The notes below the pieces were generated by a model. The model ran no database searches. It worked only from the letters and a program-made list of their open reading frames with translations, and had not been told where the DNA came from. The position numbers and the translations under genes are program-made. From Prosapia bicincta (lineage: Eukaryota; Arthropoda; Insecta; Hemiptera; Cercopidae), in assembly GCA_036971475.1 (NCBI GenBank), contig JBAIZL010000008.1, forward strand, positions 29,149,376 to 29,213,375: 64,000 bases of DNA, read 5' to 3'. This document shows positions 2,180 through 31,805 of the stretch, piece after piece; positions within the stretch are counted from its first letter, which is position 1, and each line of letters opens with the position of its first letter.

Positions 2180-2182
<3 letters not shown>

Positions 2183-7617: not shown

Positions 7618-7745
7618 AAATGAACTGGTGATAATTTAATAAACTAAGAAGGAACTAATGTAAATATACAAAATAAAAAGACGCACAGGTGTAAAAATAC
7701 AAAATAATACAATGAATTGCTGTAAATACATGAAATAATAAAATG
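7618..7745. repeat. Decayed right edge of the 158-bp satellite
   Basis: Four or so diverged ~30-bp subunits (atacaaaataa, ggtgtaaa, aatacaatgaattg) follow the last regular unit. As on the left edge, monomers decay outward into the ~31-bp subunit form, typical of array margins that no longer take part in homogenisation. Confidence 0.65.
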
Positions 7746-8864: not shown

Positions 8865-9657
8865 TAAAACGTTTCTTCACTTGAGTTCTATAAAGGCATT
8901 AGATGGGTATAGACTACCTTTGTAAAACGTATCTAACTAGAGTATGTAACATTGATTTGGTCACCCTTTATATACAGTAATATTAATAAATATATATTAT
9001 ATTTTTCCATTAAAAAGTAAAACACCAAAATCTAAACCTAAATTTTCTCATAACTGTATTGTTTAGGAATCTTCGGTAGCGACGCCAGAAAACCTTATTG
9101 GATTGAACTTATGAATATATTTATCTTCATTTCTGTTGGGAATATTTCTAAATGTTTGAGTACATCTTTCTGCCTTCTCTAACTTTTGAGTACTATTGAA
9201 GTTTTGAAAATGGAGTTAATCCGAAACGCGTCAACAAAAAGAAAATATTGTAAAGTTAGGAATACCTTACGTTATGTTGTAAAATAACTGTTGACGAAAA
9301 TGGTAATTATTAAATACTTTCAGTCAGTAAATAAATATATAAATTTATTTATGTTTTCATAATTCACAATACAAATAATTCAATATAAACAATAATTTAT
9401 GTCTTTAAATCAATACTTTTAAAATGAATACATTCTTAGGCCCATCTGATACAAAATGTATAGGTTATTTTGCATTACATAAAATTGAACGTTTTTCTCA
9501 AATCATAATTTCTGTAAACGTGACTATATCTGCTTTCGCTGCTTTCGGCCACCCCCGAGTTCCACAACCTCTTTTCCCTGGGATGATAGCTATTTTATCA
9601 TTTACCTCTTTTAATAGGAGAGGAAATACCTATTGGGACCTGTCGCAATGAAAACAG
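8862..9657. other. AT-rich spacer, no assignable gene
   Basis: An open frame of 75 aa (9424-9651, plus) covers a more GC-balanced stretch at 9535-9650 just before the satellite starts. Its C-terminal half has a Pro/Gly-rich piece and then RRGNTYWDLSQ. I do not recognise a family, and there is no supporting context such as splice sites or a second exon. The rest is AT-rich and featureless. Confidence 0.35.
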
Positions 9658-11105
9658 TTTATAGTGGGTACTATTTAATACAACCAAGTTTATCGTGGGT
9701 ACTATTTTATGCAACCAAGTTTATCGTGGTACTATTTTATGCAACCAAGTTTATCGTGGGTATATAAATTGGCAATAGGTTTATCTTGGGTAATATTTAT
9801 TGCCACCAACTTCATTGTGGGTACTTTTTTATGCAACCAAGTTTATCGTGGGTACTATTTTATGCAACCAAGTTTATCGTGGGTACTATTTTATGCAACC
9901 AAGTTTATCGTGGGTACTATTTTATGCAACCAAGTTTATCGTGGGTACTATTTTATGCAACCAAGTTTATCGTGGGTACTATTTTATGCAACCAAGTTTA
10001 TCGTGGGTACTATTTTATGCAACCAAGTTTATCGTGGGTACTATTTTATGCAACCAAGTTTATAATGGGTATATAAATTGGCAATAAGTTTATCTTGGGT
10101 AATATTTATTGCCACCAACTTTATTGTGGGTACTTTTTTATGCAACCAAGTTTATCGTGGGTACTGTTTTATGCAACCAAGGTTATCGTGGGTGCTATTT
10201 TATCCAACCAAGTTTATCGTGGGTACTATTTTATGCAACCAAGTTTATCGTGGGTACTATTTTATGCAACCAAGTTTATCGGGGGTACTATTTTATGCAA
10301 CCAAGTTTATCGGGGGTACTATTTTATGCAACCAAGTTTATCGTGGGTATATTAATTGGCAATAAGTTTATCTTGGGTAATATTTATTGCCACCAACTTT
10401 ATTGTGGGTACTTTTTTATGCAACCAAGTTTATCGTGAGTACTATTTTATGCAACCAAGTTTATCGTGGGTACTATTTTATGGAACCAGGTTTATCGTGG
10501 GTACTATTTTATGCAACCAAGTTTATCGTGGGTACTATTTTATGCAACCAAGTTTATCGTGGGAACTATTTTATGCAACCACGTTTATCGTGGGTACTAT
10601 TTTATGCAACCAAGTTTATCGTGGGTACTGTTTTATGCAACCAAGTTTATCGGGGGTACTATTTTATGCAACCAAGTTTATCGTGGGTACTATTTTATGC
10701 AACCAAGTTTATCGTGGGTACTGTTTTATGCAACCAAGTTTATCGTGGGTACTATTTTATGCAACCAAGTTTATCGGGGGTACTATTTTATGCAACCAAG
10801 TTTATCGTGGGTATATTAATTGGCAATAAGTTTATCTTGGGTAATATTTATTGCCACCAACTTTATTGTGGGTACTTTTTTATGCAACCAAGTTTATCGT
10901 GAGTACTATTTTATGCAACCAAGTTTATCGTGGGTACTATTTTATGGAACCAGGTTTATCGTGGGTACTATTTTATGCAACCAAGTTTATCGTGGGTACT
11001 ATTTTATGCAACCAAGTTTATCGTGGGAACTATTTTATGCAACCACGTTTATCGTGGGTACTGTTTTATGCAACCAAGTTTATAGTGGGTACTATTTAAT
11101 GCAAC
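9658..11105 (+). repeat. 31-bp satellite, homogeneous block
   Basis: The monomer is 31 bp and contains tttatcgtgggtac, then tattttatgcaaccaag. Copies run head to tail (for example tttatcg at 9842 and 9873) with few changes. A marker copy with tatggaaccagg recurs at 10481, 10945 and 11534, offsets of 464 (15x31-1) and 589 (19x31), so longer blocks have been duplicated. A variant unit with ttggcaataag also recurs. Because 31 is not a multiple of 3 and the monomer lacks stops, open frames up to 171 aa run through it. These are repeats of one 31-aa string and are not genes. Confidence 0.95.
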
Positions 11106-12700
11106 CACGTTTATCGTGAAGAATATTATTTGCCCCTAAGTTTATCGAGGGTTCTATTTATAGACACCTGGTTTATAGTGGGTATTATTTAATGCCACTA
11201 AGTTTATCGTGGGTAATATTTAATGCAACCACGTTTATCGTGGGTAATATTTAATGCAACCACGTTTATAGTGAAGAATATTATTTGCCCCTAAGTTTAT
11301 CGTAGGTTCTATTTATAGACACCTGGTTTATAGTGGGTACTATTTAATGCAACCAAGTTTATCGTGGGTAATATTTAATGCAACCACGTTTATCGTGAAG
11401 AATATTATTTGCCCCCAAGTTTATCGTAGGTTCTATTTATAGACACCTGGTTTACAGTGGGTACTATTTAATGCAATCAAGTTTATCGTGAGTACTATTT
11501 TATGCAACCAAGTTTATCGTGGGTACTATTTTATGGAACCAGGTTTATCGTGGGTACTATTTTATGCAACCAAGTTTATCGTGGGAACTATTTTATGCAA
11601 CCACGTTTATCGTGGGTACTGTTTTATGCAACCAAGTTTATAGTGGGTACTATTTAATGCAACCACGTTTATCGTGAAGAATATTATTTGCCCCTAAGTT
11701 TATCGAGGGTTCTATTTATAGACACCTGGTTTATAGTGGGTATTATTTAATGCCACTAAGTTTATCGTGGGTAATATTTAATGCAACCACGTTTATCGTG
11801 GGTAATATTTAATGCAACCACGTTTATCGTGAAGAATATTATTTGCCCCCAAGTTTATCGTAGGTTCTATTTATAGACATCTGGTTTATAGTGGGTACTA
11901 TTTAATGCCACCAAGTTTATCGTGAAGAATATTATTTGCCCCTAAGTTTATCGTAGGTTCTATTTATAGACACCTGGTTTATAGTGGGTACTATTTAATG
12001 CCACTAAGTTTATCGTGGGTAATATTTAATGCAACCACGTTTATCGTGGGTAATATTTAATGCAACCCGTTTATAGTGAAGAATATTATTTGCCCCTAAG
12101 TTTATCGTAGGTTCTATTTATAGACACCTGGTTTATAGTGGGTACTATTTAATGCAACCAAGTTTATCGTGGGTAATATTTAATGCAACCACGTTTATCG
12201 TGAAGAATATTATTTGCCCCCAAGTTTATCGTAGGTTCTATTTATAGACACCTGGTTTACAGTGGGTACTATTTAATGCCACTAAGTTTATCGTGGGTAA
12301 TATTTATTGCAACCACGTTTATCGTGAAGAATATTATTTGCCCCCAAGTTTATCGTAGGTTCTATTTTTAGACACCTGGTTTATAGTGGGTACTATTTAA
12401 TGCAACCAAGTTTATCGTGGGTAATATTTAATGCAACCACGTTTATCGTGAAGAATATTATTTGCCCCTAAGTTTATCGTAGGTTCTATTTATAGACACC
12501 TGGTTTATAGTGGGTACTATTTAATGCAACCAAGTTTATCGTGGGTAATATTTAATGCAACCACGTTTATCGTGAAGAATATTATTTGCCCCTAAGTTTA
12601 TCGTAGGTTCTATTTATAGACACCTGGTTTATAGTGGGTACTATTTAATGCAACCAAGTTTATCGTGGGTAATATTTAATGCAACCATGTTTATCGTGGG
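11106..12700 (+). repeat. 31-bp satellite, higher-order 124/155/279-bp block
   Basis: Here the 31-bp monomer is grouped. A marker monomer containing gaagaatattatttgcccc occurs at 11118, 11273, 11397, then among others 12202, 12326, 12450 and 12574. Spacings are 155 (5x31) and 124 (4x31), and the last four are a regular 124-bp tetramer. Companion monomers carry atagacacctgg and gttctattta. The block at about 11480-11640 repeats part of 10880-11080. Confidence 0.9.
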
Positions 12701-13883
12701 TGCCATTTTATGCATCCAAGTTTATCGTGGGTATATTAATTGCCAATATGTTTATCTTGGGTAATTTTTTTTGCCATCAAGTTTATCGTGGGTACTATTT
12801 AATGCAACTAATTTTATCGTGGGTAATATTTAATGCAACCACGTTTATCGTGAGTAATAGTAATTGCCACTAAGTTTATCGTGGGTTATATTTAGTGCCA
12901 CCTGGTTTATAATGGGTTCTATTTAATGCAACCAATTTTATCGTGGGTAATATTTAATGCAACCAAGTTTATCGTGGGTACTATTTAATGCAACCAAGTT
13001 TATCGTGGGTACTATTTAATGCAACTAATTTTATCGTGGGTAATATTTAATGCAACCACGTTTATCGTGAGTAATAGTAATTGCCACTAAGTTTATCGTG
13101 GGTTATATTTAGTGCCACCTGGTTTATAATGGGTACTATTTAATGCAACCAATTTTATCGTGGGTAATATTTAATGCAACCACGTTTATCGTGAGTAATA
13201 GTAATTGTCACTAAGTTTATCGTGGGTTATATTTAGTGCCACCTGGTTTATAGTGGGTATTATTTAATGCAACCATGTTTATTGCTACCAGGTTTATCAT
13301 GGGTAATATTTAATGCCTAATGGTTTATCGTCTTACTATTTAATGCAATCACGTTTATCGTGGGTAATATATACTGCTACCAGGTTAGTCGTTAGTAATA
13401 TTTATTGTCATCTGATTTATCGTTAGTAGGCCTACTATTTAAGGCTAACAAGTTTATCGTGTATAATATTTATTGATACCAGGTTTATCGTCGGTAGTAT
13501 TTATTGCAACTAATTTTTTCCTGAGTAATATACATTGCTACCGGGTTTAACATAGGTAATATTTTATGCCACCTGGTTTATCTTAGGTACTATATAATGC
13601 AATTTGTCATTTATATTATATATTGCTACCAGGTCTATCGACACTAATATTTAATGCCACCAGGTTTATCGTCCGTACTATTTAATGCAACCAAGTTTAT
13701 CGTTCGTAATATTTAATGCCACCAGGTTTATCGTCGGTAATTTTTGAGCCACCTGGTTCATCGTGGGTAATATTAATGCCACCAAGTTTATCGTTGATTA
13801 AATTTATTGCTACCAGGTTATTCATCGGAGCTATTAATTGCAATCAAGTTAATCGTTGGTAATATTTAATTCTACCAGGTTTA
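12701..13883 (+). repeat. 31-bp satellite, diverged block left of the inserted element
   Basis: The 31-bp monomer is still recognisable (accaggtttatcgt, gtaatatttaatgc) but increasingly diverged toward 13880, with single-base indels and mixed variants. A taggcctacta motif sits near 13427. This is the oldest-looking part of the array, and the large inverted-repeat element lies inside it. Confidence 0.85.
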
Positions 13884-13889
13884 CCTTAG
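13884..13889. other. Left target-site duplication, CCTTAG
   Basis: CCTTAG directly precedes the left end of the inverted-repeat element and is repeated in the same orientation at 26413-26418. It cannot be extended: 13883 is a against t at 26412, and 13890 is a against g at 26419. It occupies the position of the satellite hexamer tcgtgg between ttta and gtaat. Confidence 0.85.
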
Positions 13890-13955
13890 AGTAGATCGCG
13901 CCCTAGACTAGCACAGCCACCCCTAAACTCGGCCGCTACGTAACCTAGGACTATA

Positions 13956-14098
13956 GGGGTAGTTTTGGATGATGCTCAAGGTCATCCCGGCCGTGACCCC
14001 AGACCAAGGGGTGGTTTCGACCACGTTCAGGGGGGTAGGGGGTAGTTTTTCGAAAAAAAAAAAAAACAAAATCGGCCGCTACGTAACCTAGGACTGTA
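13956..14098 (+). repeat. Outer terminal module, first copy
   Basis: Begins ggggtagttttggatgatgc and ends just before a second, similar copy at 14099, a period of 143 bp. The lead-in cggccgctacgtaacctagg is present before both copies (13931 and about 14073). It includes ggggtagtttttcgaaaaaa followed by a poly-A run. Mirrored at 26204-26346. Confidence 0.8.
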
Positions 14099-14260
14099 GG
14101 GGTAGTTTCGGATGATGCGAGCGGACGTCGTGACCCTGACCGTAGCTTTGGGGGTGGTTTTGAACACGTCCAGAGGGGTGGGGGGTAGTTTTTCGAAAAA
14201 ATTTATTTCCAACACACTGACCTAAGCCAACCAAAATGGATCAAACCTAACCTAACCTAC
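14099..14260 (+). repeat. Outer terminal module, second copy
   Basis: Begins ggggtagtttcggatgatgc and ends with cctaacctaacctac. In between are gaacacgtccagagggg, gtagtttttcgaaaaaa and cctaagccaacc. The same order of blocks occurs at 20183-20331, in the same plus orientation but at the inner end of the other arm. Mirrored at 26042-26203. Confidence 0.8.
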
Positions 14261-14420
14261 GTGTAGGGGGTGACCTCGGCTACGTTCAGGACCATCTCCG
14301 GGGGTAGCTCCGGGGGTGGATTGGGGGTGGGGGGTAGTTTTCGAAAAAATTTTGGATAAACGTGCCTTGGCCGGTAGGGTATGTCTAGAGTGTATTAATG
14401 CATCGGTAGGGGTAGTTTCA

Positions 14421-14650
14421 CCTAGGGGTAGTTTTTGAATAAAATACGAAAATGCCGAAAATCGAACGGTTGGATCAACAGACAGTACGGGATACGTGTA
14501 GAGTCCATTACGGGCTGCTGCGGGGGCGGTTTACCTAGGGGTAGTTTTTACAAAAAATATAAAATTGCCGAAAATCGACCGGCTGGATCAAATGACCGTA
14601 TATGGTATGGTTAAAGTCCATCTTGGTGGGCTGTGCGGGCGGTTTCACCT
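14421..14650 (+). repeat. 113-bp duplication inside the arm
   Basis: Two diverged copies begin cctaggggtagtttt at 14421 and 14534. Both continue with gccgaaaatcga, ggatcaa and gggcggttt-like ends. Mirrored in the right arm at 25652-25881. Confidence 0.7.
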
Positions 14651-15500
14651 GTTTTTAGATCGCCAAAAATAATCGGGGTCCTAGGTAAAATCCACCCAGG
14701 CATCAGTTAAACCCGCCAAGGTAGAGCCAATATGGAGCACGCTATCGGTTAAAGCCAAACCGAGCCCAGCCACCCGGCAGCTAGGCCTTAGGTAAAGCTA
14801 ACACGGAGCTAGCCCTCGGGTACGGACATCTCAAGGCCGATTCTTAGGTAAAGTAACCCGGAATAGCTCCGGTGGTGGGGGTAACTTTTGGAAAGATTTA
14901 ACGGTTATCTGATGACGTATCAGCGCTTGAGCGAGTCTAGGCAAGTAGTAGGCATACCCCAACTAGAGTGTTCTACCCTAAATAAATTGGCTGATGCAGG
15001 GCAAGGGGCAAACCTGCAGAGTTAACACACTATCTTGGAGGTAGGCCCACCCAAACCTCAGGCATAGCATCCCTGCAACGGGGATTTAGCCAACCCAAGG
15101 CAGGCCCCTAAGTAAAGCCACCCGAGGAAAAGGCTTAAGGTAAAGCTACCTTTGAGCCTGGTCTTAGGTAAAGCCCCATTGGAGGTAGACCTTAAGTAAA
15201 GCTACCCAAGAGTCCGGCCAGGCTGGTTGCTATATCAATTACAACCTATCGACCAAGACAAATACCTCCACCAAGTCCTAGGTAAAGCCATCCGGGTGTC
15301 AGACCATAGGTAAAGTAACCGCGGAGCCGGGCGTGAGGTAAAGCCAGCTAGGCCTTAGGTAAAGCTACCACTGAGGCAGACCATCGGTAAAGCCACCCAG
15401 GACATAGGAATAGTCTATACGGAGCATGGCCTCAGGTAAAAGCCATCCCGAAGACTGCCCATAGGTAAAAGTAACCTAGGAATCTTACATTAAGTGAGGG
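14651..15500 (+). repeat. Degenerate ccttaggtaaagc repeat field
   Basis: Roughly a dozen short units share cyttaggtaaag followed by cyaccc or gtaaccc and a gag or gac stretch, at irregular spacing of about 25-45 bp. Within and after this field, the motif atgacgtatc-gcg-gagcga at about 14911-14942 recurs at about 15917-15943. Interestingly the target hexamer CCTTAG is part of the unit. No coding potential is evident. Mirrored at 24802-25651. Confidence 0.65.
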
Positions 15501-17680
15501 TGGTTATCAAATGAAATTACCAAAAATGATCGGCTACATCAAATGACCAACATTCCAACTAAACACTAATTGTAACCGACCAACCGAGCGTAAATAGTCA
15601 ACAAGTTGAATCGACCAATCACAGTGCAGGGACCCGGTAGGCTTACGCAAACGGTCGCAGTAAGACGTGAAAGCCCATATACCATGTTAAACCAATATAT
15701 ATGATAGTCCACATAATGTGTTAAACAAATACGCAAGCTTGCATACATACTATGCTAGGCCAACATACTATGTCGGTAAATCACCGGCCAAACCCCGTAT
15801 GACCTGAGCTATTTTCACCTCCTCTATCAGGTTGATCCTGGCAACCGTCTAATATGGGAGGTACTATAGGGTACATCTACCAATGCATAACCTATCAAGC
15901 CCACGTAAAGATTTATGACGTATCGGCGTTCGAGCGACTCAGGTATTAGACCCTCCATAACTAGAGGGGGCAAGGGTTATGAATGTCAAAATTTGTCTAT
16001 GCTACAAAATAATAAACAAAGCAATAAAGCCCTGTCGTTTCAGGGAATACGCTTGACCGTGTGTTAGACATGTACAGACTTGCAGCGATAACACATTATC
16101 TAAAAACCGCAACGGCTGCCGGCGACCGCTATAGCAGGCATAAAAACCAGCACGGCTATGTCGTTGTGAATCTAGGCACGTGTTTATGTTTTGATTACTG
16201 TATCAAATTACTGTGTGCTGTCGACATACCAAGGCCTACATATATATAATCAGAAATCAGTGTAAATAATCAAATAGCCTCAATGGACATCTCCTATAGC
16301 TGTAAATGTATCTAGATATAAAGGTATATATGGAGAACCCTAATAATGAGGCCTATCACAAAACGTGAATAAATATATGTTATAAAACGATGCTAAGCCA
16401 ACACGCATGCTATCATACATAGGCTTGTTGGGCATACATACATGATAGTACACATAACGTGTTAAACAAACATACGTGTAAACCTGCATACTATGCCAAG
16501 CCGACTTACATGGGCCTACTATGTCGGTAAACCACTGGCCAAGGCCTATATGATCTGAGCTAGTTTCACCTCGTCTATCAGGTAGAATCTGGCAACCGTA
16601 TAATACGGGAAGTACTATATGGTATAGCTAACAATGCTAACCTATATGGTATAGCTAACCTATCACGCCCATGACGGTCAACAAATATTACAATATAATT
16701 TAAAAAAGTTACGCAACCTATATACATACAATGCTAAGCCAACTTTCAGGCATATATACTATGTTAAACCAGCATGCAATATACTCTAAATAGCCATATA
16801 TACGTTGTTAAACCAATATGCAGGTTAACCTATATACATCCTGTATTAGGCAAATATCCCCGTTACCCGCACAGGCCTATGTTAAGCCAGGATGAATGAT
16901 AGCTTATATAGTGTGTTAAACAAATATGCTTGTAAACCTACATAAATAATATGCTAAGCCTACATACTGTGCTAAACAGATATGCGTGTAAACCTACATA
17001 AATACTATGCTAACCAGCATGGATGCTATCCTACATAAGCTTATATACTATGTTAAACCAGCATGCAATATACTCTAAATAGCCATATATACGCTGTTAA
17101 ACAAATATGCGTGTAAACCCACATAAATACGCCAAGCCAATATCCGTGCTATAATAGATAGGCGTATATACTATGTTAGGCCTACATACTGCGTTAAACA
17201 AACATGTATGTAAGCCGACAAGGGCCTACAAATTATATCCAATGCATAGTTTAGCTAAAGGGCAATCACACACTATCCTAAAAGCGGCCCGCAAATTACC
17301 ACATAATACCTGATACATAGCTTGGCTAATCATTAACACATAGTATGACCCAACACATAATATCCGGTGCATAGCCTCGCTAAATAAGCATAAACCCCCC
17401 AAAATTGGCTTATCAATTATGTATGGTCTAGATATAGTCACACATGTCATTTCAAAAGTCAGCCGGAAAGAAACACTACCCTGGTATATAATATGTTAAA
17501 CCAGCATGCAATATACTCTAAATAGCCGTATATACGCTGTTAAACAAATATGCGTGTAAACCGAATAAATACTATGGTAAGCCAACACGCATGCTATCAT
17601 AGATAGACGTATATACTATGTTAGGCCTACATACCGCGTTAAACAAACATGTGTGTAAGCCTGCATAGATATTATGCTAA
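15501..17680 (+). repeat. Nested duplications with gttaaaccagcatg repeats
   Basis: A ~260-bp diverged duplication starts near 15640 and 16400; its landmark ctatgtcggtaaa is at 15768 and 16518, an offset of 750. A second family beginning tatgttaaaccagcatgc, then tactctaaatagcc and gttaaacaaatatgcg, occurs at about 16760, 17049 and 17492. Short open frames here (60-74 aa) have no recognisable product. Mirrored at 22622-24801. Confidence 0.7.
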
Positions 17681-18590
17681 GAAGACACGGGCCCACAAAG
17701 TATAACACATTATATCCAGTGTATAGTTTAGCTAATGGTTATCACACAGTAGCCTGACTACAACTTGCCCGCATAATACCCGACACATAGCTAGACTAAT
17801 CATTAACACATAGTATCCGATGCATAGCCCGACGATGGGTTAACATATAGTATCCGATAAGTAGCTTGAGAATGCCCCAACACATAATATCCGGTGCATA
17901 GCCTCGCTAATGGTTAGCACATAGTAGCCGATGCTGAGCCTGGCTATGGAATATCACATATTATCTGATGTGTAGCCTGACTAATGGTTAACACAGCCAA
18001 TGCATAGCTAGGCTAATGATTAACATAAAGTATCCAATGCATGGCTTGGGTAATGTATATAGTTAGCCTACATTCTGTGTTATCTGTGTAAACTCACATA
18101 CTATGCTAAGCCGGTTATCCATAGACACAAATCTATGGTGATGCAAGAGTAACCAGCACCCTGACAACAGATACCTAGCATGATCATAGCCTACATTGCC
18201 TGATAACAGATACCTAGCCTGACCATAGCCTACATAGCTAGACAAAAGATACATAACTAGACAATAGATACCTAGCCTGACAACAGACACCAATCCTGGA
18301 ATCAAATACATAGCCCGACAAACGATGCATAGCCCGACAAGGGCTATCACATAGTATCCGAGGTATAGAATGACTAACGGTTAACACATGGTATCCAAAG
18401 CATAACTAGGCTAGTGAATAACTAATGGTTAGTTTAACTATGGTTAACACACACAGTGTCCGATGCATAGCTTAGCTAATGGATAACACATAGTAACCTA
18501 TGCCTAGCCTGACTAGGGCTAACACATAGTACCCGATGAATGGCTCGACTAAGGCCAACACACAGTATCCGATGCACAACCTAGGATCGA
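17681..18590 (+). repeat. Degenerate catagtatccgatgcatagc repeats
   Basis: Many imperfect copies of about 37-40 bp share gttaacacatagtatccgat, gcatagc and ctaatgg. Between 18150 and 18330 they give way to shorter units with gacaacagatacctagc. A perfect tgacgtca palindrome lies at 18594-18601, just past the end. No gene is supported. Mirrored at 21712-22621. Confidence 0.7.
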
Positions 18591-18899
18591 ATATGACGTC
18601 ATCCAGGTGGAGAACAAGATGGTGGCTATGTTGATACCGTGATGGCCAGTGTAGGCTAGATCAAATAACCAGCGTTTCAACCAAACTACTGTCTTACGCT
18701 AAGTTTAACCAACCAACCAACATACGCGAAGTTCAAACGAACAACATTTACACCAAGCTCAAATAGGCTATAGCGGCTATGCCCAGATCAACGTATCAGC
18801 TAATCAAAATGAAAAACTTACGCTAATCAACCAACATCTACACCGAGGTCAAATGGGTTATGGTTAGCGAAGGCACTGGCAAAAGCTTTAAGCCCTAGA
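18591..18899 (+). other. Arm segment with little repeat structure
   Basis: This ~310-bp stretch separates two repeat fields. It contains a short duplication around ccaaccaacata and tcaaat-ggctatagcg but no array, open frame or RNA signal. Mirrored at 21403-21711. Confidence 0.5.
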
Positions 18900-19860
18900 C
18901 ATAATTATAGCTATCAACGCGTACCAAAATAGCTATGCAGAAACCGTCAAGGTCATTACACATATTGTCCGGGTATGTTCTCCATCAGACCGAGACTTTA
19001 GACACCATCTCTGTAAAACAGCTAACAAATTATACTCTACCACAATAGGTATGTCAAAACTGTTACCGGCTCATAATCTAAGACAGTGGTTACGTAACGC
19101 CCTTTATCAATTTAAGACCTTAAGAGATATCTTCGTAAAGACAGCTACCAACCCATATTATATCACAATAGTTACGTTAGAGCTACCGCTGCTCACCCTA
19201 CCATAATAGCTACGTACAGAAGGTTAATATTGTATAACCTATCACAAGACTTATGTAAAAACAGCTAGGCATAACCTGTCACACAATAACTGCGTAAAGG
19301 CAGCTAACAAGGCCTACCCCATTAAAATAGCTACGAAAAGATAACATCCAATACATACCCTATCATATTAGCTATGTAAAGACAATAAATGCGTAAAGGC
19401 AGCTAACAATGCCTACCCCAGTAAAATAGCTACGAAAAGATAACAACCAATACATAACTTATCATAATAGCTATGTAAAGACAGCTAAAGATGCATAACC
19501 TAACTCAGTAATGATTGCTATTAAATAATGAACCATTACACTAGCCACGTAAAGACAGCCACCAACATCACAATAGCTACGTAAAAAACAGTTATCGACC
19601 CGTGACCAAGATAATACTTACGTAAGATCTATATCAGTGCTAAGACAATAGCTCCGTAAGGAAAACCTACCACCTCATGAACTACGACAACAGCAAGGTG
19701 TGGACGGCTACCAATACATTACTTATCACAGCTACCAACACATAACTCGGCACACTAGCTAAGTAAATAGCGCTACGATTGAATAGCCTATCACACAGGC
19801 TAATTGACGGTCACTAACTAAACCATCACAATATCTCTGTACATGGCAGATGGCGTGATG
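18900..19860 (+). repeat. Degenerate tagctacgtaaagacagct repeats
   Basis: Imperfect ~37-40-bp units share atagctacgtaaagacagc and a variable part with aacctatcac. A longer near-copy with gcgtaaaggcagctaacaa occurs at about 19289 and 19391. Mirrored at 20442-21402. Confidence 0.7.
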
Positions 19861-19887
19861 ATCCTCATCTTTATCGCACACCTAACA

Positions 19888-20125
19888 GTAGGTTAGGTTA
19901 GAAGCACTCTGGCTAGCTTAGGTTAGTGGGTTGAAAAACTACCCCTCTAGACGTGGTTGAACACCCAACAGTAGGTTAGGTTAGAAGCACTCTGGCTAGC
20001 TTAGGTTAGTGGGTTGAAAATAATTTTTTCTAAAAACTACCCCTCTAGACGTGGTTGAACCCTCCCCCAAGGCTACGATCAAGGTCACATCGACCGCCTG
20101 CATCATCCAAAACCACCCCTAACTT
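19888..20125 (-). repeat. Inner terminal module of the left arm, with an 83-bp duplication
   Basis: In minus orientation this repeats the outer module of the same arm: the block order of 14099-14260 is found reversed at 19971-20119. The part containing gtaggttaggttag and cactctggctagcttagg is duplicated at 19888 and 19971, a period of 83 bp. The inner end lacks the extra ~209 bp that precede the module at the outer end. Mirrored at 20177-20414, where the module reads in plus orientation from 20183 to 20331. Confidence 0.8.
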
Positions 20126-20176
20126 TCAAAGGTTGGTCGTATCTCCATCACCGGCATCACTGATCTGTGGTTGTAG
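20126..20176. other. 51-bp central spacer of the palindrome
   Basis: This is the only unpaired part between the two arms. It starts tcaaaggttggtcg and ends gtggttgtag and is not itself palindromic. A short direct repeat, catcac, occurs twice in it. It is the single unique landmark of the element and would form the loop of a hairpin. Confidence 0.85.
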
Positions 20177-23100
20177 AAGTTAGGGGTGGTTTTGGATGAT
20201 GCAGGCGGTCGATGTGACCTTGATCGTAGCCTTGGGGGAGGGTTCAACCACGTCTAGAGGGGTAGTTTTTAGAAAAAATTATTTTCAACCCACTAACCTA
20301 AGCTAGCCAGAGTGCTTCTAACCTAACCTACTGTTGGGTGTTCAACCACGTCTAGAGGGGTAGTTTTTCAACCCACTAACCTAAGCTAGCCAGAGTGCTT
20401 CTAACCTAACCTACTGTTAGGTGTGCGATAAAGATGAGGATCATCACGCCATCTGCCATGTACAGAGATATTGTGATGGTTTAGTTAGTGACCGTCAATT
20501 AGCCTGTGTGATAGGCTATTCAATCGTAGCGCTATTTACTTAGCTAGTGTGCCGAGTTATGTGTTGGTAGCTGTGATAAGTAATGTATTGGTAGCCGTCC
20601 ACACCTTGCTGTTGTCGTAGTTCATGAGGTGGTAGGTTTTCCTTACGGAGCTATTGTCTTAGCACTGATATAGATCTTACGTAAGTATTATCTTGGTCAC
20701 GGGTCGATAACTGTTTTTTACGTAGCTATTGTGATGTTGGTGGCTGTCTTTACGTGGCTAGTGTAATGGTTCATTATTTAATAGCAATCATTACTGAGTT
20801 AGGTTATGCATCTTTAGCTGTCTTTACATAGCTATTATGATAAGTTATGTATTGGTTGTTATCTTTTCGTAGCTATTTTACTGGGGTAGGCATTGTTAGC
20901 TGCCTTTACGCATTTATTGTCTTTACATAGCTAATATGATAGGGTATGTATTGGATGTTATCTTTTCGTAGCTATTTTAATGGGGTAGGCCTTGTTAGCT
21001 GCCTTTACGCAGTTATTGTGTGACAGGTTATGCCTAGCTGTTTTTACATAAGTCTTGTGATAGGTTATACAATATTAACCTTCTGTACGTAGCTATTATG
21101 GTAGGGTGAGCAGCGGTAGCTCTAACGTAACTATTGTGATATAATATGGGTTGGTAGCTGTCTTTACGAAGATATCTCTTAAGGTCTTAAATTGATAAAG
21201 GGCGTTACGTAACCACTGTCTTAGATTATGAGCCGGTAACAGTTTTGACATACCTATTGTGGTAGAGTATAATTTGTTAGCTGTTTTACAGAGATGGTGT
21301 CTAAAGTCTCGGTTTGATGGAGAACATACCTGGACAATATGTGTAATGACCTTGACGGTTTCTGCATAGCTATTTTGGTACGCGTTGATAGCTATAATTA
21401 TGTCTAGGGCTTAAAGCTTTTGCCAGTGCCTTCGCTAACCATAACCCATTTGACCTCGGTGTAGATGTTGGTTGATTAGCGTAAGTTTTTCATTTTGATT
21501 AGCTGATACGTTGATCTGGGCATAGCCGCTATAGCCTATTTGAGCTTGGTGTAAATGTTGTTCGTTTGAACTTCGCGTATGTTGGTTGGTTGGTTAAACT
21601 TAGCGTAAGACAGTAGTTTGGTTGAAACGCTGGTTATTTGATCTAGCCTACACTGGCCATCACGGTATCAACATAGCCACCATCTTGTTCTCCACCTGGA
21701 TGACGTCATATTCGATCCTAGGTTGTGCATCGGATACTGTGTGTTGGCCTTAGTCGAGCCATTCATCGGGTACTATGTGTTAGCCCTAGTCAGGCTAGGC
21801 ATAGGTTACTATGTGTTATCCATTAGCTAAGCTATGCATCGGACACTGTGTGTGTTAACCATAGTTAAACTAACCATTAGTTATTCACTAGCCTAGTTAT
21901 GCTTTGGATACCATGTGTTAACCGTTAGTCATTCTATACCTCGGATACTATGTGATAGCCCTTGTCGGGCTATGCATCGTTTGTCGGGCTATGTATTTGA
22001 TTCCAGGATTGGTGTCTGTTGTCAGGCTAGGTATCTATTGTCTAGTTATGTATCTTTTGTCTAGCTATGTAGGCTATGGTCAGGCTAGGTATCTGTTATC
22101 AGGCAATGTAGGCTATGATCATGCTAGGTATCTGTTGTCAGGGTGCTGGTTACTCTTGCATCACCATAGATTTGTGTCTATGGATAACCGGCTTAGCATA
22201 GTATGTGAGTTTACACAGATAACACAGAATGTAGGCTAACTATATACATTACCCAAGCCATGCATTGGATACTTTATGTTAATCATTAGCCTAGCTATGC
22301 ATTGGCTGTGTTAACCATTAGTCAGGCTACACATCAGATAATATGTGATATTCCATAGCCAGGCTCAGCATCGGCTACTATGTGCTAACCATTAGCGAGG
22401 CTATGCACCGGATATTATGTGTTGGGGCATTCTCAAGCTACTTATCGGATACTATATGTTAACCCATCGTCGGGCTATGCATCGGATACTATGTGTTAAT
22501 GATTAGTCTAGCTATGTGTCGGGTATTATGCGGGCAAGTTGTAGTCAGGCTACTGTGTGATAACCATTAGCTAAACTATACACTGGATATAATGTGTTAT
22601 ACTTTGTGGGCCCGTGTCTTCTTAGCATAATATCTATGCAGGCTTACACACATGTTTGTTTAACGCGGTATGTAGGCCTAACATAGTATATACGTCTATC
22701 TATGATAGCATGCGTGTTGGCTTACCATAGTATTTATTCGGTTTACACGCATATTTGTTTAACAGCGTATATACGGCTATTTAGAGTATATTGCATGCTG
22801 GTTTAACATATTATATACCAGGGTAGTGTTTCTTTCCGGCTGACTTTTGAAATGACATGTGTGACTATATCTAGACCATACATAATTGATAAGCCAATTT
22901 TGGGGGGTTTATGCTTATTTAGCGAGGCTATGCACCGGATATTATGTGTTGGGTCATACTATGTGTTAATGATTAGCCAAGCTATGTATCAGGTATTATG
23001 TGGTAATTTGCGGGCCGCTTTTAGGATAGTGTGTGATTGCCCTTTAGCTAAACTATGCATTGGATATAATTTGTAGGCCCTTGTCGGCTTACATACATGT

Positions 23101-26100
23101 TTGTTTAACGCAGTATGTAGGCCTAACATAGTATATACGCCTATCTATTATAGCACGGATATTGGCTTGGCGTATTTATGTGGGTTTACACGCATATTTG
23201 TTTAACAGCGTATATATGGCTATTTAGAGTATATTGCATGCTGGTTTAACATAGTATATAAGCTTATGTAGGATAGCATCCATGCTGGTTAGCATAGTAT
23301 TTATGTAGGTTTACACGCATATCTGTTTAGCACAGTATGTAGGCTTAGCATATTATTTATGTAGGTTTACAAGCATATTTGTTTAACACACTATATAAGC
23401 TATCATTCATCCTGGCTTAACATAGGCCTGTGCGGGTAACGGGGATATTTGCCTAATACAGGATGTATATAGGTTAACCTGCATATTGGTTTAACAACGT
23501 ATATATGGCTATTTAGAGTATATTGCATGCTGGTTTAACATAGTATATATGCCTGAAAGTTGGCTTAGCATTGTATGTATATAGGTTGCGTAACTTTTTT
23601 AAATTATATTGTAATATTTGTTGACCGTCATGGGCGTGATAGGTTAGCTATACCATATAGGTTAGCATTGTTAGCTATACCATATAGTACTTCCCGTATT
23701 ATACGGTTGCCAGATTCTACCTGATAGACGAGGTGAAACTAGCTCAGATCATATAGGCCTTGGCCAGTGGTTTACCGACATAGTAGGCCCATGTAAGTCG
23801 GCTTGGCATAGTATGCAGGTTTACACGTATGTTTGTTTAACACGTTATGTGTACTATCATGTATGTATGCCCAACAAGCCTATGTATGATAGCATGCGTG
23901 TTGGCTTAGCATCGTTTTATAACATATATTTATTCACGTTTTGTGATAGGCCTCATTATTAGGGTTCTCCATATATACCTTTATATCTAGATACATTTAC
24001 AGCTATAGGAGATGTCCATTGAGGCTATTTGATTATTTACACTGATTTCTGATTATATATATGTAGGCCTTGGTATGTCGACAGCACACAGTAATTTGAT
24101 ACAGTAATCAAAACATAAACACGTGCCTAGATTCACAACGACATAGCCGTGCTGGTTTTTATGCCTGCTATAGCGGTCGCCGGCAGCCGTTGCGGTTTTT
24201 AGATAATGTGTTATCGCTGCAAGTCTGTACATGTCTAACACACGGTCAAGCGTATTCCCTGAAACGACAGGGCTTTATTGCTTTGTTTATTATTTTGTAG
24301 CATAGACAAATTTTGACATTCATAACCCTTGCCCCCTCTAGTTATGGAGGGTCTAATACCTGAGTCGCTCGAACGCCGATACGTCATAAATCTTTACGTG
24401 GGCTTGATAGGTTATGCATTGGTAGATGTACCCTATAGTACCTCCCATATTAGACGGTTGCCAGGATCAACCTGATAGAGGAGGTGAAAATAGCTCAGGT
24501 CATACGGGGTTTGGCCGGTGATTTACCGACATAGTATGTTGGCCTAGCATAGTATGTATGCAAGCTTGCGTATTTGTTTAACACATTATGTGGACTATCA
24601 TATATATTGGTTTAACATGGTATATGGGCTTTCACGTCTTACTGCGACCGTTTGCGTAAGCCTACCGGGTCCCTGCACTGTGATTGGTCGATTCAACTTG
24701 TTGACTATTTACGCTCGGTTGGTCGGTTACAATTAGTGTTTAGTTGGAATGTTGGTCATTTGATGTAGCCGATCATTTTTGGTAATTTCATTTGATAACC
24801 ACCCTCACTTAATGTAAGATTCCTAGGTTACTTTTACCTATGGGCAGTCTTCGGGATGGCTTTTACCTGAGGCCATGCTCCGTATAGACTATTCCTATGT
24901 CCTGGGTGGCTTTACCGATGGTCTGCCTCAGTGGTAGCTTTACCTAAGGCCTAGCTGGCTTTACCTCACGCCCGGCTCCGCGGTTACTTTACCTATGGTC
25001 TGACACCCGGATGGCTTTACCTAGGACTTGGTGGAGGTATTTGTCTTGGTCGATAGGTTGTAATTGATATAGCAACCAGCCTGGCCGGACTCTTGGGTAG
25101 CTTTACTTAAGGTCTACCTCCAATGGGGCTTTACCTAAGACCAGGCTCAAAGGTAGCTTTACCTTAAGCCTTTTCCTCGGGTGGCTTTACTTAGGGGCCT
25201 GCCTTGGGTTGGCTAAATCCCCGTTGCAGGGATGCTATGCCTGAGGTTTGGGTGGGCCTACCTCCAAGATAGTGTGTTAACTCTGCAGGTTTGCCCCTTG
25301 CCCTGCATCAGCCAATTTATTTAGGGTAGAACACTCTAGTTGGGGTATGCCTACTACTTGCCTAGACTCGCTCAAGCGCTGATACGTCATCAGATAACCG
25401 TTAAATCTTTCCAAAAGTTACCCCCACCACCGGAGCTATTCCGGGTTACTTTACCTAAGAATCGGCCTTGAGATGTCCGTACCCGAGGGCTAGCTCCGTG
25501 TTAGCTTTACCTAAGGCCTAGCTGCCGGGTGGCTGGGCTCGGTTTGGCTTTAACCGATAGCGTGCTCCATATTGGCTCTACCTTGGCGGGTTTAACTGAT
25601 GCCTGGGTGGATTTTACCTAGGACCCCGATTATTTTTGGCGATCTAAAAACAGGTGAAACCGCCCGCACAGCCCACCAAGATGGACTTTAACCATACCAT
25701 ATACGGTCATTTGATCCAGCCGGTCGATTTTCGGCAATTTTATATTTTTTGTAAAAACTACCCCTAGGTAAACCGCCCCCGCAGCAGCCCGTAATGGACT
25801 CTACACGTATCCCGTACTGTCTGTTGATCCAACCGTTCGATTTTCGGCATTTTCGTATTTTATTCAAAAACTACCCCTAGGTGAAACTACCCCTACCGAT
25901 GCATTAATACACTCTAGACATACCCTACCGGCCAAGGCACGTTTATCCAAAATTTTTTCGAAAACTACCCCCCACCCCCAATCCACCCCCGGAGCTACCC
26001 CCGGAGATGGTCCTGAACGTAGCCGAGGTCACCCCCTACACGTAGGTTAGGTTAGGTTTGATCCATTTTGGTTGGCTTAGGTCAGTGTGTTGGAAATAAA

Positions 26101-26412
26101 TTTTTTCGAAAAACTACCCCCCACCCCTCTGGACGTGTTCAAAACCACCCCCAAAGCTACGGTCAGGGTCACGACGTCCGCTCGCATCATCCGAAACTAC
26201 CCCTACAGTCCTAGGTTACGTAGCGGCCGATTTTGTTTTTTTTTTTTTTCGAAAAACTACCCCCTACCCCCCTGAACGTGGTCGAAACCACCCCTTGGTC
26301 TGGGGTCACGGCCGGGATGACCTTGAGCATCATCCAAAACTACCCCTATAGTCCTAGGTTACGTAGCGGCCGAGTTTAGGGGTGGCTGTGCTAGTCTAGG
26401 GCGCGATCTACT
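20177..26412 (-). repeat. Right arm of the inverted-repeat element (6,236 bp)
   Basis: Reverse complement of the left arm. Open frames at mirrored positions encode identical short peptides (for example 21952-22239 and 18063-18350, 95 aa). Further stretches checked by eye also match, including 23583-23622 and 20872-20921. The identity between arms is far higher than that among the repeat copies inside one arm, so the arms are either very recent or kept alike by gene conversion. Confidence 0.9.
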
Positions 26413-26418
26413 CCTTAG
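26413..26418. other. Right target-site duplication, CCTTAG
   Basis: Second copy of the hexamer found at 13884-13889. It is followed by gtaatatttg, the normal continuation of a satellite monomer, so the satellite resumes in phase after the element. Confidence 0.85.
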
Positions 26419-26739
26419 GTAATATTTGTTGCCACCTGGTATTTAGTGGGTATAGCAACCCCGTTTATTGTGGGTAATATATATTGCTTCCTGGTTTAAC
26501 GACGATACTATTTAATGCAACCAAGTTTATCGTTGGTATTATATACTGGTACCAGGTCTATCCTGGGTAATATTTAATGCCACCTGGTTTATCATCGGTA
26601 CATTTTAATGCAACCAAATTAATTCTTTTTAGTATATATTGCTATTTGGATTATCGTGAGTACTATTTAATGTAAGTATGTTTTTAGTGGGTACTATAAT
26701 TTGCAACTAAGTTTATCTGGGTAATATTTAATGCCACCA
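26419..26739 (+). repeat. 31-bp satellite, diverged block right of the inserted element
   Basis: Monomers are recognisable by gccacctgg, gtaatatt and gcaaccaagttta, but differ by many substitutions and some indels, like the block left of the element. The orientation is the same as on the left. Confidence 0.8.
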
Positions 26740-28508
26740 GTTTTGTCGAGGGTACTATTTAATGCCACCAGTTTTGTCGAGGGTACTATTTAATGCAAAC
26801 AAGTTTATCTGGGTAATATTTAATGCCACCAGTTTTGTCGAGGGTACTATTTAATGCAAACAAGTTTATCTGGGTAATATTTAATGCCACCAGTTTTGTC
26901 GTGGGTACTATTTAATGCAACCAAGTTTATCTGGGTAATATTTATTGCCACCAGTTTTGTCGAGGGTACTATTTAATGCAAACAAGTTTATCTGGGTAAT
27001 ATTTAATGCCACCAGTTTTGTCGAGGGTACTATTTAATGCAAACAAGTTTATCTGGGTAATATTTATTGCCACCAGTTTTGTCGAGGGTACTATTTAATG
27101 CAACCAAGTTTATCTGGGTAATATTTATTGCCACCAGTTTTGTCGAGGGTACTATTTAATGCAAACAAGTTTATCTGGGTAATATTTATTGCCACCAGTT
27201 TTGTCGAGGGTACTATTTAATGCAAACAAGTTTATCTGGGTAATATTTAATGCCACCAGTTTTGTCGTGGGTACTATTTAATGCAACCAAGTTTATCTGG
27301 GTAATATTTATTGCCACCAGTTTTGTCGAGGGTACTATTTAATGCAAACAAGTTTATCTGGGTAATATTTAATGCCACCAGTTTTGTCGTGGGTACTATT
27401 TAATGCAACCAAGTTTATCTGGGTAATATTTAATACCACCAGTTTTGTCGAGGGTACTATTTAATGCAACCAAGTTTATCTGGGTAATATTTAATGCCAC
27501 CAGTTTTGTCGAGGGTACTATTTAATGCAAACAAGTTTATCTGGGTAATATTTATTGCCACCAGTTTTGTCGAGGGTACTATTTAATGCAACCAAGTTTA
27601 TCTGGGTAATATTTAATGCCACCAGTTTTGTCGTGGGTACTATTTAATGCAACCAAGTTTATCTGGGTAATATTTAATGCCACCAGTTTTGTCGAGGGTA
27701 CTATTTAATGCAAACAAGTTTATCTGGGTAATATTTATTGCCACCAGTTTTGTCGTGGGTACTATTTAATGCAACCAAGTTTATCTGGGTAGTATTTATT
27801 GCCACCAGTTTTGTCGAGGGTACTATTTAATGCAACCGAGTTTATCTGGGTAATATTTAATGCCACCAGTTTTGTCGTGGGTACTATTTAATGCAAACAA
27901 GTTTATCTGGGTAATATTTATTGCCACCAGTTTTGTCGAGGGTACTATTTAATGCAACCAAGTTTATCTGGGTAATATTTAATGCCACCAGTTTTGTCGA
28001 GGGTACTATTTAATGCAAACAAGTTTATCTGGGTAATATTTATTGCCACCAGTTTTGTCGAGGGTACTATTTAATGCAAACAAGTTTATCTGGGTAATAT
28101 TTAATGCCACCAGTTTTGTCGTGGGTACTATTTAATGCAACCAAGTTTATCTGGGTAATATTTATTGCCACCAGTTTTGTCGAGGGTACTATTTAATGCA
28201 AACAAGTTTATCTGGGTAATATTTAATGCCACCAGTTTTGTCGTGGGTACTATTTAATGCAACCAAGTTTATCTGGGTAATATTTAATGCCACCAGTTTT
28301 GTCGAGGGTACTATTTAATGCAAACAAGTTTATCTGGGTAATATTTAATGCCACCAGTTTTGTCGAGGGTACTATTTAATGCAAACAAGTTTATCTGGGT
28401 AATATTTAATGCCACCAGTTTTGTCGTGGGTACTATTTAATGCAACCAAGTGTATCTGGGTAATATTTATTGCCACCAGTTTTGTCGAGGGTACTATTAA
28501 ATGCAAAC
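26740..28508 (+). repeat. 61-bp dimer array of the 31-bp satellite
   Basis: A dimer of one 31-bp monomer (gttttgtcgagggtactatt...) and one 30-bp monomer (agtttatctgggtaatattt...) is repeated. The gttttgtcg landmark is at 26740, 26771, 26832 and finally 28479; 28479-26771 is exactly 28x61, so there is no net indel across 28 dimers. Variation is confined to a few sites, such as cgaggg/cgtggg, gcaaacaag/gcaaccaag and ttaatgcc/ttattgcc. Confidence 0.95.
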
Positions 28509-31500
28509 AAGTTTTATCGTGGGCAATGTTTAATTGCACCTGGTTTTTCGTGGGTGAAATTAGTGCAAACAAGTTTATTAGGGGTAATATTTATTACTAC
28601 CACGTTTATCGTGGGTACTATTTAATGCAATAAAATTTATTAGGGGTACTATTTATTGCAACCAAGTTTATCGTTGGTACTATTTAATGCACCCAAGTTT
28701 ATTAGGGATAATATTTTCTTCTACCGGGTTTATAGTGAGTACTACTTAATGTAACCAAGATTATCGTGGGTAATATTTAATGCCACCAGTTTTGTCGTGG
28801 GTACTATTTAATGCAACCAGGTTTATTAGGGGTAATATTTATTGCTACCAGCTTTATAGTGAGTACTACTTAATGCAACCAGGTTTATTAGAAGTAATAT
28901 TTATTGCTACCAGCTTTATAGTGAGTACTATTAAATGCAACCAAGTTTTATCGTGGGCAATGTTTAATTGCACCAGGTTTTTCGTGGGCATAATTAGTGC
29001 AAACAAGTTTATTAGGGGTAATATTTATTACTACCACGTTTATCGTGGGTACTATTTAATGCAATAAAATTTATTAGGGGTACTATTTATTGCAACCAAG
29101 TTTATCGTTGGTACTATTTAATGCACCCAAGTTTATTAGGGATAATATTTTCGTCTACCAGGTTTATAGTGAGTACTACTTAATGTAACCAAGATTATCG
29201 TGGGTAATATTTAATGCCACCAGTTTTGTCGTGGGTACTATTTAATGCAACCAGGTTTATTAGAAGTAATATTTATTGCTACCAGCTTTATAGTGAGTAC
29301 TATTAAATGCAACCAAGTTTTATCGTGGGCAATGTTTAATTGCACCAGGTTTTTCGTGGGCATAATTAGTGCAAACAAGTTTATTAGGGGTAATATTTAT
29401 TACTACCAGGTTTATCGTGGGTACTATTTAATGCAACCAGGTTTATTAGAAGTAATATTTATTGCTACCAGCTTTATAGTGAGTACTACTTAATGCAACC
29501 AGGTTTATTAGAAGTAATATTTATTGCTACCAGCTTTATAGTGAGTATTATTAAATGCAACCAAGTTTTATCGTGGGCAATGTTTAATTGCACCAGGTTT
29601 TTCGTGGGCATAATTAGTGCAAACAAGTTTATTAGGGGTAATATTTATTACAACCAGGTTTATCGTGGGTACTATTTAATGCAACCAGGTTTATTAGAAG
29701 TAATATTTATTGCTACCAGCTTTATAGTGAGTACTACTTAATGCAACCAGGTTTATTAGAAGTAATATTTATTGCTACCAGCTTTATAGTGAGTACTATT
29801 AAATGCAACCAAGTTTTATCGTGGGCAATGTTTAATTGCACCAGGTTTTTCGTGGGCATAATTAGTGCAAACAAGTTTATTAGGGGTAATATTTATTACT
29901 ACCAGGTTTATCGTGGGTACTATTTAATGCAACCAGGTTTATTAGAAGTAATATTTATTGCTACCAGCTTTATAGTGAGTACTATTAAATGCAACCAAGT
30001 TTTATCGTGGGCAATGTTTAATTGCACCAGGTTTTTCGTGGGCATAATTAGTGCAAACAAGTTTATTAGGGGTAATATTTATTACTACCACGTTTATCGT
30101 GGGTACTATTTAATGCAATAAAATTTATTAGGGGTACTATTTATTGCAACCAAGTTTATCGTTGGTACTATTTAATGCACCCAAGTTTATTAGGGATAAT
30201 ATTTTCGTCTACCAGGTTTATAGTGAGTACTACTTAATGTAACCAAGATTATCGTGGGTAATATTTAATGCCACCAGTTTTGTCGTGGGTACTATTTAAT
30301 GCAACCAGGTTTATTAGAAGTAATATTTATTGCTACCAGCTTTATAGTGAGTACTATTAAATGCAACCAAGTTTTATCGTGGGCAATGTTTAATTGCACC
30401 AGGTTTTTCGTGGGCATAATTAGTGCAAACAAGTTTATTAGGGGTAATATTTATTACTACCAGGTTTATCGTGGGTACTATTTAATGCAACCAGGTTTAT
30501 TAGAAGTAATATTTATTGCTACCAGCTTTATAGTGAGTACTACTTAATGCAACCAGGTTTATTAGAAGTAATATTTATTGCTACCAGCTTTATAGTGAGT
30601 ACTATTAAATGCAACCAAGTTTTATCGTGGGCAATGTTTAATTGCACCAGGTTTTTCGTGGGCATAATTAGTGCAAACAAGTTTATTAGGGGTAATATTT
30701 ATTACAACCAGGTTTATCGTGGGTACTATTTAATGCAACCAGGTTTATTAGAAGTAATATTTATTGCTACCAGCTTTATAGTGAGTACTACTTAATGCAA
30801 CCAGGTTTATTAGAAGTAATATTTATTGCTACCAGCTTTATAGTGAGTACTATTAAATGCAACCAAGTTTTATCGTGGGCAATGTTTAATTGCACCAGGT
30901 TTTTCGTGGGCATAATTAGTGCAAACAAGTTTATTAGGGGTAATATTTATTACTACCAGGTTTATCGTGGGTACTATTTAATGCAACCAGGTTTATTAGA
31001 AGTAATATTTATTGCTACCAGCTTTATAGTGAGTACTATTAAATGCAACCAAGTTTTATCGTGGGCAATGTTTAATTGCACCAGGTTTTTCGTGGGCATA
31101 ATTAGTGCAAACAAGTTTATTAGGGGTAATATTTATTACTACCAGGTTTATCGTGGGTACTATTTAATGCAACCAGGTTTATTAGAAGTAATATTTATTG
31201 CTACCAGCTTTATAGTGAGTACTATTAAATGCAACCAAGTTTTATCGTGGGCAATGTTTAATTGCACCAGGTTTTCGTGGGCATAATTAGTGCAAACAAG
31301 TTTATTAGGGGTAATATTTATTACTACCACGTTTATCGTGGGTACTATTTAATGCAACCAGGTTTATTAGAAGTAATATTTATTGCTACCAGCTTTATAG
31401 TGAGTACTATTAAATGCAACCAAGTTTTATCGTGGGCAATGTTTAATTGCACCAGGTTTTTCGTGGGCATAAGTAGTGCAAACAAGTTTATTAGGGGTAA

Positions 31501-31805
31501 TATTTATTACTACCAGGTTTATCGTGGGTACTATTTAATGCAATAAAATTTATTAGGGATACTATTTATTGCAACCAAGTTTATCGTTGGTACTATTTAA
31601 TGCACCCAAGTTTATTAGGGATAATATTTTCGTCTACCAGGTTTATAGTGAGTACTACTTAATGCAACCAAGATTATCGTGGGTAATATTTAATACCACC
31701 AGTTTTCTCGTGGGTACCATTTAATGCAACCAAGTTTTTTAGGGGTAATTTTCTTTGCTGCCAGGTTTATAGTGAGTACTACTTAATGCAACCAAGATTA
31801 TCGTG
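28509..31805 (+). repeat. 31-bp satellite with 186/248/434/1054-bp higher-order repeats
   Basis: Monomers here are diverged from each other but strongly ordered. A gcaaccaggtttattag monomer recurs at 29245, 29493 and 29741 (248 = 8x31), and again at 30299, 30547 and 30795, each exactly 1054 bp (34x31) later. A second marker, aataaaatttattagg, is at 28629, 29063, 30117 and 31542, offsets of 434, 1054 and 1425 (46x31-1). The missing base is a single-T deletion near 31272. Open frames up to 163 aa are a by-product of the stop-free 31-bp period. Confidence 0.92.

Follow-up and report, generated by a model that had tools for sequence, protein, structure and literature searches.

The systems closest to the element considered here are described in four published accounts, on which the following outline draws. 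Polinton/Maverick elements of vertebrates are flanked by 6-bp duplications, end in (AG)3 or (AGT)2 and, when intact, carry inverted repeats of 46-1,447 bp (PMC8097293). In snap-back defective genomes of adeno-associated virus (AAV), one end of the genome is present twice, the second copy being inverted, and replication takes place with helper functions (PMC8235507). Galileo makes 7-bp duplications, has a transposase of the P superfamily and bears arms of up to ~1.26 kb (PMC3573991), and the Mutator/Foldback system Tm1 makes mostly 9-bp duplications and includes elements of 1.08 and 2.59 kb (PMC3169594). Here we analyze a 64,000-nucleotide stretch of contig C350 from Prosapia bicincta, referred to in its entirety as the window, which contains a 12,523-bp palindrome at positions 13890-26412 that is composed of two 6,236-bp arms and a 51-bp loop. 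The window element is probably one copy of a multi-copy, non-autonomous, palindromic derivative of Polintons, and we infer that its copying takes place in trans and that fold-back preserves its symmetry.

A gene-less palindrome and its copies in the genome

A sequence-only reading of the window had described a 12.5-kb mirror-image element flanked by CCTTAG, and the boundaries and spacer of the palindrome bear this description out (Table 1). That reading also took the arms to be identical, which is nearly but not exactly the case, as the full-arm comparison revealed two mismatches (18971/21331 and 18988/21314). The two sites are 17 bp apart and adjoin arm 5063-5090, where the arm matches of two other elements, C350a and C146a, stop. 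The innermost 1,137 bp of the arms pair without mismatch, and the edges of the spacer at 20126-20176 are unpaired. The GC content of the arm is 43%, versus 28% to the left and 35% to the right of the element. Removal of the element and one CCTTAG yields a 31-bp satellite unit (junction counted by eye), which agrees with the earlier report of an in-phase insertion; the phase is not special, however, because any clean 6-bp duplication would restore the unit.

The view that the element lacks genes holds, although its longest stop-to-stop frame is 105 amino acids, slightly above the limit of 95 that had been given. None of the three arm frames of 95-105 amino acids matched a Pfam family above its cut-off, and the codon periodicity of substitutions between elements was weak, with the best of 81 sequence windows reaching a chi-square of 11.5 (2 degrees of freedom) and falling in the tandem-repeat end of the arm. 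On these two grounds we reject hidden genes within the arms. With no frame above 105 amino acids, the window element shows neither a protein-primed DNA polymerase (PolB) nor room for a DDE (rve) integrase. Searches of the window for RNA families and tRNAs returned no tRNA and no RNA family reaching threshold. Phage records gave no match to the element, and a scan of IMG/VR with its 18 terminal bases returned two contigs, with the match well inside both.

A genome check for further copies, specified beforehand in terms of ends, loop and duplications, was performed on the 2.2-Gb assembly of the host. Such copies were found, and the objection that there might be no other copy fails. With the terminal 320 bp as query, 24 of the best 40 of 2,073 candidates formed 12 facing pairs, 11.3-12.6 kb apart. 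Both flanks were read in 11 of these pairs, the window included, and all 11 have perfect 6-bp duplications, each different from the others. Perfect duplications extend to all 20 elements for which both flanks were read, namely these 11 facing pairs, C146a, C350a, five further partners and two PolB elements. Outside this count are C313:174.05 Mb and C333a, which meet runs of N, C333:89.07 Mb, which has an unaligned end, C260:22.65 Mb, which offers a single flank, and three sets with unread flanks: C146:124.3 Mb, the inner-arm pairs described below and the end pairs found with the terminus of a PolB element on C8. The duplications display no visible common sequence (judged by eye). Every aligned end that was read starts with AGTAG, and the window end with AGTAGA. 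The first 30 bases vary between elements, yet each of the 11 facing-pair elements has the same 30 at its two ends; the two ends of C333:3.73 Mb differ by one base. The family is mobile with 6-bp target duplications, and the earlier proposal that the palindrome moves as a unit stands, since further copies of ~12.5 kb agree with it in ends and loop and stand between 6-bp duplications of other sequence. The recurrence of ends, centre and size next to other duplications likewise rules out a chance origin. In a separate observation, two equal-score ends on C79 (129536405 and 129583119, plus strand) have the same orientation and are 47 kb apart, with a further end at 129596430 (minus strand); they possibly reflect a nested or tandem insertion or a segmental duplication.

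The centre of the palindrome also recurs. When arm 4411-5101 was used as query, 32 of the best 40 of 3,201 candidates formed 16 pairs, all of which face each other across gaps of 1,424-2,355 bp (2.32-2.36 kb in 12 of the 16), and the other 8 could not be paired within this set of 40. Together, 14 centres and 15 further pairs amount to at least 29 copies with a palindromic centre or closely facing inner arms. The 12 centres first examined (window plus 11) share the same loop, which is 51 nt in eight, 53 nt in three and 59 nt in one, and the arms beside it have 0-2 mismatches in 600-758 bp. The loop is oriented as in the window in five of these 12 centres, with the window counted, and oppositely in seven. 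Two more centres (L082 and L083) contain it as well, which makes 14 of 14. Because one loop is common to all centres read, we conclude that the loop has a single origin and that a palindrome formed on one occasion has been moving as a whole ever since; the same evidence leads us to reject a fresh snap-back event for every insertion. A specially conserved loop is unsupported, as its identity between copies is 94.5%, below the 95.3-98.9% of 50-bp blocks in the flanking arms.

The arms are alike by element and divergent between elements. Within an element, comparison of the first 1,800 bp of one arm with those of the other gives 0-5 substitutions and no more than two gap columns (11 elements), whereas identity between elements ranges from 75.5% to 99.3% with a mean of 84.1% (55 comparisons).

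Partner elements with a polymerase or an apoptosis inhibitor

The sequence-only reading knew of no named family that matched, a statement that has to be withdrawn: elements that bear PolB have these ends and 6-bp duplications and share the greater part of the arm's first 5 kb. A search of the host genome with the protein-primed PolB family PF03175 returned at least 197 matches from 76 scored of 1,591 candidates, and the same search of 14 control genomes returned none. Many of the frames are unbroken, with 1,200-1,407 amino acids among the matches listed. They fall into several length classes (~1273, 1308 and 1407 amino acids), and only seven, of 1,270-1,285 amino acids, were linked to the ends studied here. 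These seven PolB genes lie inward of such an end, at a distance of 3.5-3.8 kb for one side of the element or 7.1-8.0 kb for the opposite side, and the constancy of this distance in seven of seven points to a fixed architecture. Five of the seven elements were found with the C8 terminus as query, and one of these five, C313:246220484-246233279, lies between two ends. Flanks were read for the remaining two: C8:46463438-46476811 (13,374 bp) is flanked by GTTATT and C146:56927381-56940260 (12,880 bp) by GTTATC. In all, both ends were located for three of the seven.

The right arm of the C8 element matches the window arm in gapped, largely ordered pieces, and a stretch between the fourth and fifth match blocks contains a 174-amino-acid frame and a RING-finger stretch. 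On the left side of this element there is an inverted repeat of ~0.5 kb, 85% identical to the arm, and an open frame located 2.1 kb from the end shares its reading phase with the PolB match downstream of it. The last 150 bp of the window arm give a repeat-like match to the subterminal repeats in inverted orientation, which we infer may be a trace of the lost opposite end. The link of the element family to Polinton/Maverick elements is well supported.

Table 1. Features of the window element and its surroundings, and correspondences with PolB-bearing elements
Feature	Position	Strand	Remark
31-bp satellite left of element	9656..13883	+	insertion target
Left target duplication CCTTAG	13884..13889	+	directly outside left end
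Left arm	13890..20125	+	6,236 bp, begins AGTAGATCGCG; same end found in other copies
Terminal stretch	13890..13992	+	identical to ends of C8 PolB element (98 bp left, 103 bp right)
Arm 1-5045	13890..18934	+	gapped, largely in-order matches to C8 PolB element right arm (67-96% in pieces)
Subterminal tandem repeat	13925..14201	+	period 143, 1.9 copies
Inner arm end	19972..20121	+	resembles subterminal repeats in inverted orientation (78-81%)
Loop (spacer)	20126..20176	.	51 bp, common to all 14 palindromic centres read
Right arm	20177..26412	-	mirror of left arm, 2 mismatches in 6,236
Right target duplication CCTTAG	26413..26418	+	directly outside right end
31-bp satellite right of element	26463..31805	+	
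Other satellite stretches	3532..7629, 35060..58787, 60373..63130, 63331..64000		
C8 right arm 1-468 (from right end)	window arm 1-471		95%
C8 right arm 470-1205	window arm 205-1119		80-85%
C8 right arm 1270-1591	window arm 1303-1593		67%
C8 right arm 2213-2648	window arm 1934-2371		96%
C8 right arm 4786-5199	window arm 3962-4363		75%
C8 right arm 5254-5470	window arm 4766-5045		78-85%
PolB gene with end	C8:46467020		
PolB gene with end	C146:56930916		
PolB gene with end	C289:367376		
PolB gene with end	C146:394848409		
PolB gene with end	C146:402576881		
PolB gene with end	C313:246224013		
PolB gene with end	C260:126280093		

A further class carries an inhibitor-of-apoptosis (IAP) gene between its arms. 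The 2.8-kb middle of C350a (L011:2850-5670, equal to C350:1782849-1785669) contains a frame with BIR and RING domains and a second RING stretch. When this middle was used as query, 31 of the best 40 of 1,892 candidates matched over almost its full length with at least 92% identity. Inverted arms lie beside the middle in all six copies checked, with a best inverted match of 86-99.8% (1.5 kb per side). The BIR-RING frame is unbroken in five of the six, and the pooled ratio of nonsynonymous to synonymous differences (pN/pS) is 0.14 in 10 non-independent comparisons, so these elements apparently maintain an anti-apoptotic gene. Such a conserved frame is more in keeping with a virus-like way of life than with that of a passive transposon. 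One copy of the middle lies ~15 kb from a PolB gene (C313:233805100-233823686).

C146a is a variant with a 1.4-kb middle. Nested in its right arm is an 821-amino-acid frame of a Penelope-like reverse transcriptase (L010:399-2861, plus strand), whose best-scoring named relatives are from arthropods (Allacma, Aedes, Molorchus and Planococcus). As for the surroundings of the window element, satellite DNA with units of 158, 31, 76, 171 and 62 bp makes up about two thirds of the window.

Origin of the palindrome and of its symmetry

Symmetric defective genomes occur in adenoviruses, and on the model of such viral genomes the palindrome would have arisen once by snap-back, in which the PolB side of an element was lost and the right arm was duplicated in inverted orientation around the 51-bp loop. 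A possible route leads through the IAP class, which likewise has two such arms. Partner elements would supply the protein-primed polymerase that copies the resulting element in trans; this enzyme could start from either end, as terminal sequence at both ends would suffice. Insertion, with a stagger of 6 bp, would be the work of an integrase of the Polinton type. During every round of copying, the strand that is displaced would fold into a 6.2-kb hairpin in which differences between the arms are repaired or copied away. Such a step would keep the arms identical while lineages drift apart.

Several observations weigh against this explanation. Homology with a PolB element is silent on the direction of descent, and the fold-back step is itself a hypothesis. 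The match to C8 is not strictly colinear, as 470-1054 steps back to arm 205-785, and the comparison contains off-diagonal repeat matches. Apart from the repeat-like match at its end, the innermost 1.1 kb of the window arm had no counterpart in the C8 PolB pieces read, and for that reason a snap-back origin leaves this part of the arm unexplained. No integrase was seen among the open frames in 9.1 of the 13.4 kb of the C8 element, which was read in pieces whose largest frame has 174 amino acids; the Pfam comparison covered only two of these frames. The element ends in AGTAGA rather than in a full (AGT)2, and arms of 6,236 bp are far beyond the inverted repeats of Mavericks. The conservation of the loop, for which no partner arm exists as a template for correction, falls just short of that of the arms. 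Finally, equalization is not universal: the outermost bases are unlike at the two ends in C350a, C359, C8:80.4 Mb and C146:56.9 Mb, and the arms of C350a are only 88.3% alike. Because this divergence accompanies a perfect duplication, C350a was probably chimeric already at insertion.

In-place gene conversion, the main rival, would account for the symmetry differently, with old insertions whose arms are kept identical within the chromosome, as happens in large chromosomal palindromes, and no hairpin stage. Near-identical arms within elements that are up to 25% apart are consistent with conversion, as are the arms of C146a, which are ~99.9% alike apart from the Penelope-like insertion in one of them. 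However, the target duplications are perfect in 20 of 20 elements. For 11 insertions, 4.35 changes in the duplications would be expected and none was seen (P(0) ~0.013), an estimate that sets the age at half the distance to the nearest sampled relative and that nearer unsampled relatives would weaken. C350a, moreover, retains unequal arms alongside its perfect duplication. We therefore regard conversion in the chromosome as an unlikely source of the symmetry.

The element classes could instead be parts of a multipartite, virus-like system, in which PolB-bearing, IAP-bearing and gene-less palindromic segments of like size share their ends, are co-replicated and are perhaps co-packaged. The classes do share ends, 6-bp duplications and a narrow size range. 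Palindromes measure 11,332-12,617 bp (12 elements), members of the IAP class 11,343-12,655 bp (4), members of the PolB class 12,796-13,374 bp (3) and the twelve end pairs found with the C8 terminus 11,978-13,312 bp; C8:80.4 Mb (12,626 bp), whose centre is unread, was left unclassed. The unbroken BIR-RING frames and their low pN/pS point in the same direction, as does the blockwise mosaic structure of the elements. This structure is seen in the whole-arm comparison of four elements, on which the claim of mosaicism solely rests, where 400-bp blocks of arm 1-5200 range from 70% to 100% identity; over the first 1,800 bp of 19 elements, one of 171 pairs has both a block of at least 99% and a block of at most 80%. 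On the other hand, the shared size could come from common descent of the arms, outlying sizes may be missed since elements were found through similar ends, and no member has a demonstrated integrase or capsid gene (capsid genes were not looked for). We thus offer only tentatively, as an improbable possibility, that an animal genome hosts a multipartite system with shared replication and insertion machinery, in which the palindrome would be a stable satellite whose symmetry is renewed in each cycle by a giant hairpin.

An ordinary class II fold-back transposon, akin to Foldback, Galileo or Mutator, that owes its mobility to a cut-and-paste transposase and has merely captured PolB, appears very doubtful. 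Derivatives of Galileo and Foldback typically have long inverted arms, rich in internal repeats, on either side of a short middle (PMC3573991), and the C8 pieces without an integrase would suit such an element. The 6-bp duplications nevertheless differ from the 7 bp of Galileo (PMC3573991) and the 9 bp of Tm1 (PMC3169594), and the AGTAG ends are close to the Maverick motifs (PMC8097293). In addition, PolB recurs in seven elements with these ends at a constant distance, and the duplication is perfect in both of those with flanks read.

Long perfect palindromes are an assembly hazard, and C333a runs into a 7,500-bp N gap, but a false inverted join is almost inconceivable here and is refuted for the family, because one 6-bp duplication borders the outer ends of both arms and because this structure recurs at many sites, next to duplications that differ from site to site.

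Comparison with known systems

If the derivation from Polintons is correct, heritable satellites of Polintons exist and are the counterpart of the defective genomes of viruses. The identity of the arms would then be a record of rounds of fold-back copying, which would make protein-primed Polinton replication in animals testable from genome sequence. Near-perfect palindromes of 12 kb in at least 29 copies should also matter for genome stability, double-stranded RNA and assembly. A search of titles and the beginnings of abstracts, with most subscription journals and repeat databases outside its scope, found no report of gene-less Polinton derivatives as giant palindromes, which is weak evidence of absence.

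The window element resembles Polinton/Maverick elements in its 6-bp duplications, AGT-type ends and terminal inverted repeats, and its same-ended partners carry protein-primed PolB. It differs from them in being gene-less, in having 6.2-kb arms rather than repeats of 46-1,447 bp, and in forming a palindrome with a 51-bp loop; moreover, in contrast to Polinton/Maverick elements of the adintovirus-like kind, its relatives have no demonstrated integrase or capsid gene. Because neither gene was tied to the ends, in a survey that did not look for capsid genes and read 9.1 of 13.4 kb of one PolB element, we file the element not as a Polinton but as a derivative of one, whose mode of operation seems to be that of a snap-back satellite.

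With Galileo and Foldback, the family shares long, repetitive inverted arms, two-arm derivatives and chimeric copies, and Galileo arms are 98-100% alike within a copy (PMC3573991). The 6-bp duplications and 6,236-bp arms set the family apart from Galileo. Tm1 likewise combines composite inverted arms with gene-carrying and gene-less classes (PMC3169594), but it makes 9-bp duplications and is of the Mutator type by the title of that report. With snap-back genomes of AAV, the likeness lies in an inverted-duplicated end that lets a single strand fold into a hairpin, a property described for AAV (PMC8235507) and proposed for the window element from its sequence. Unlike those genomes, the window family is inserted with target duplications and forms an inherited, long-lived lineage that has one loop and is linked to Polintons.

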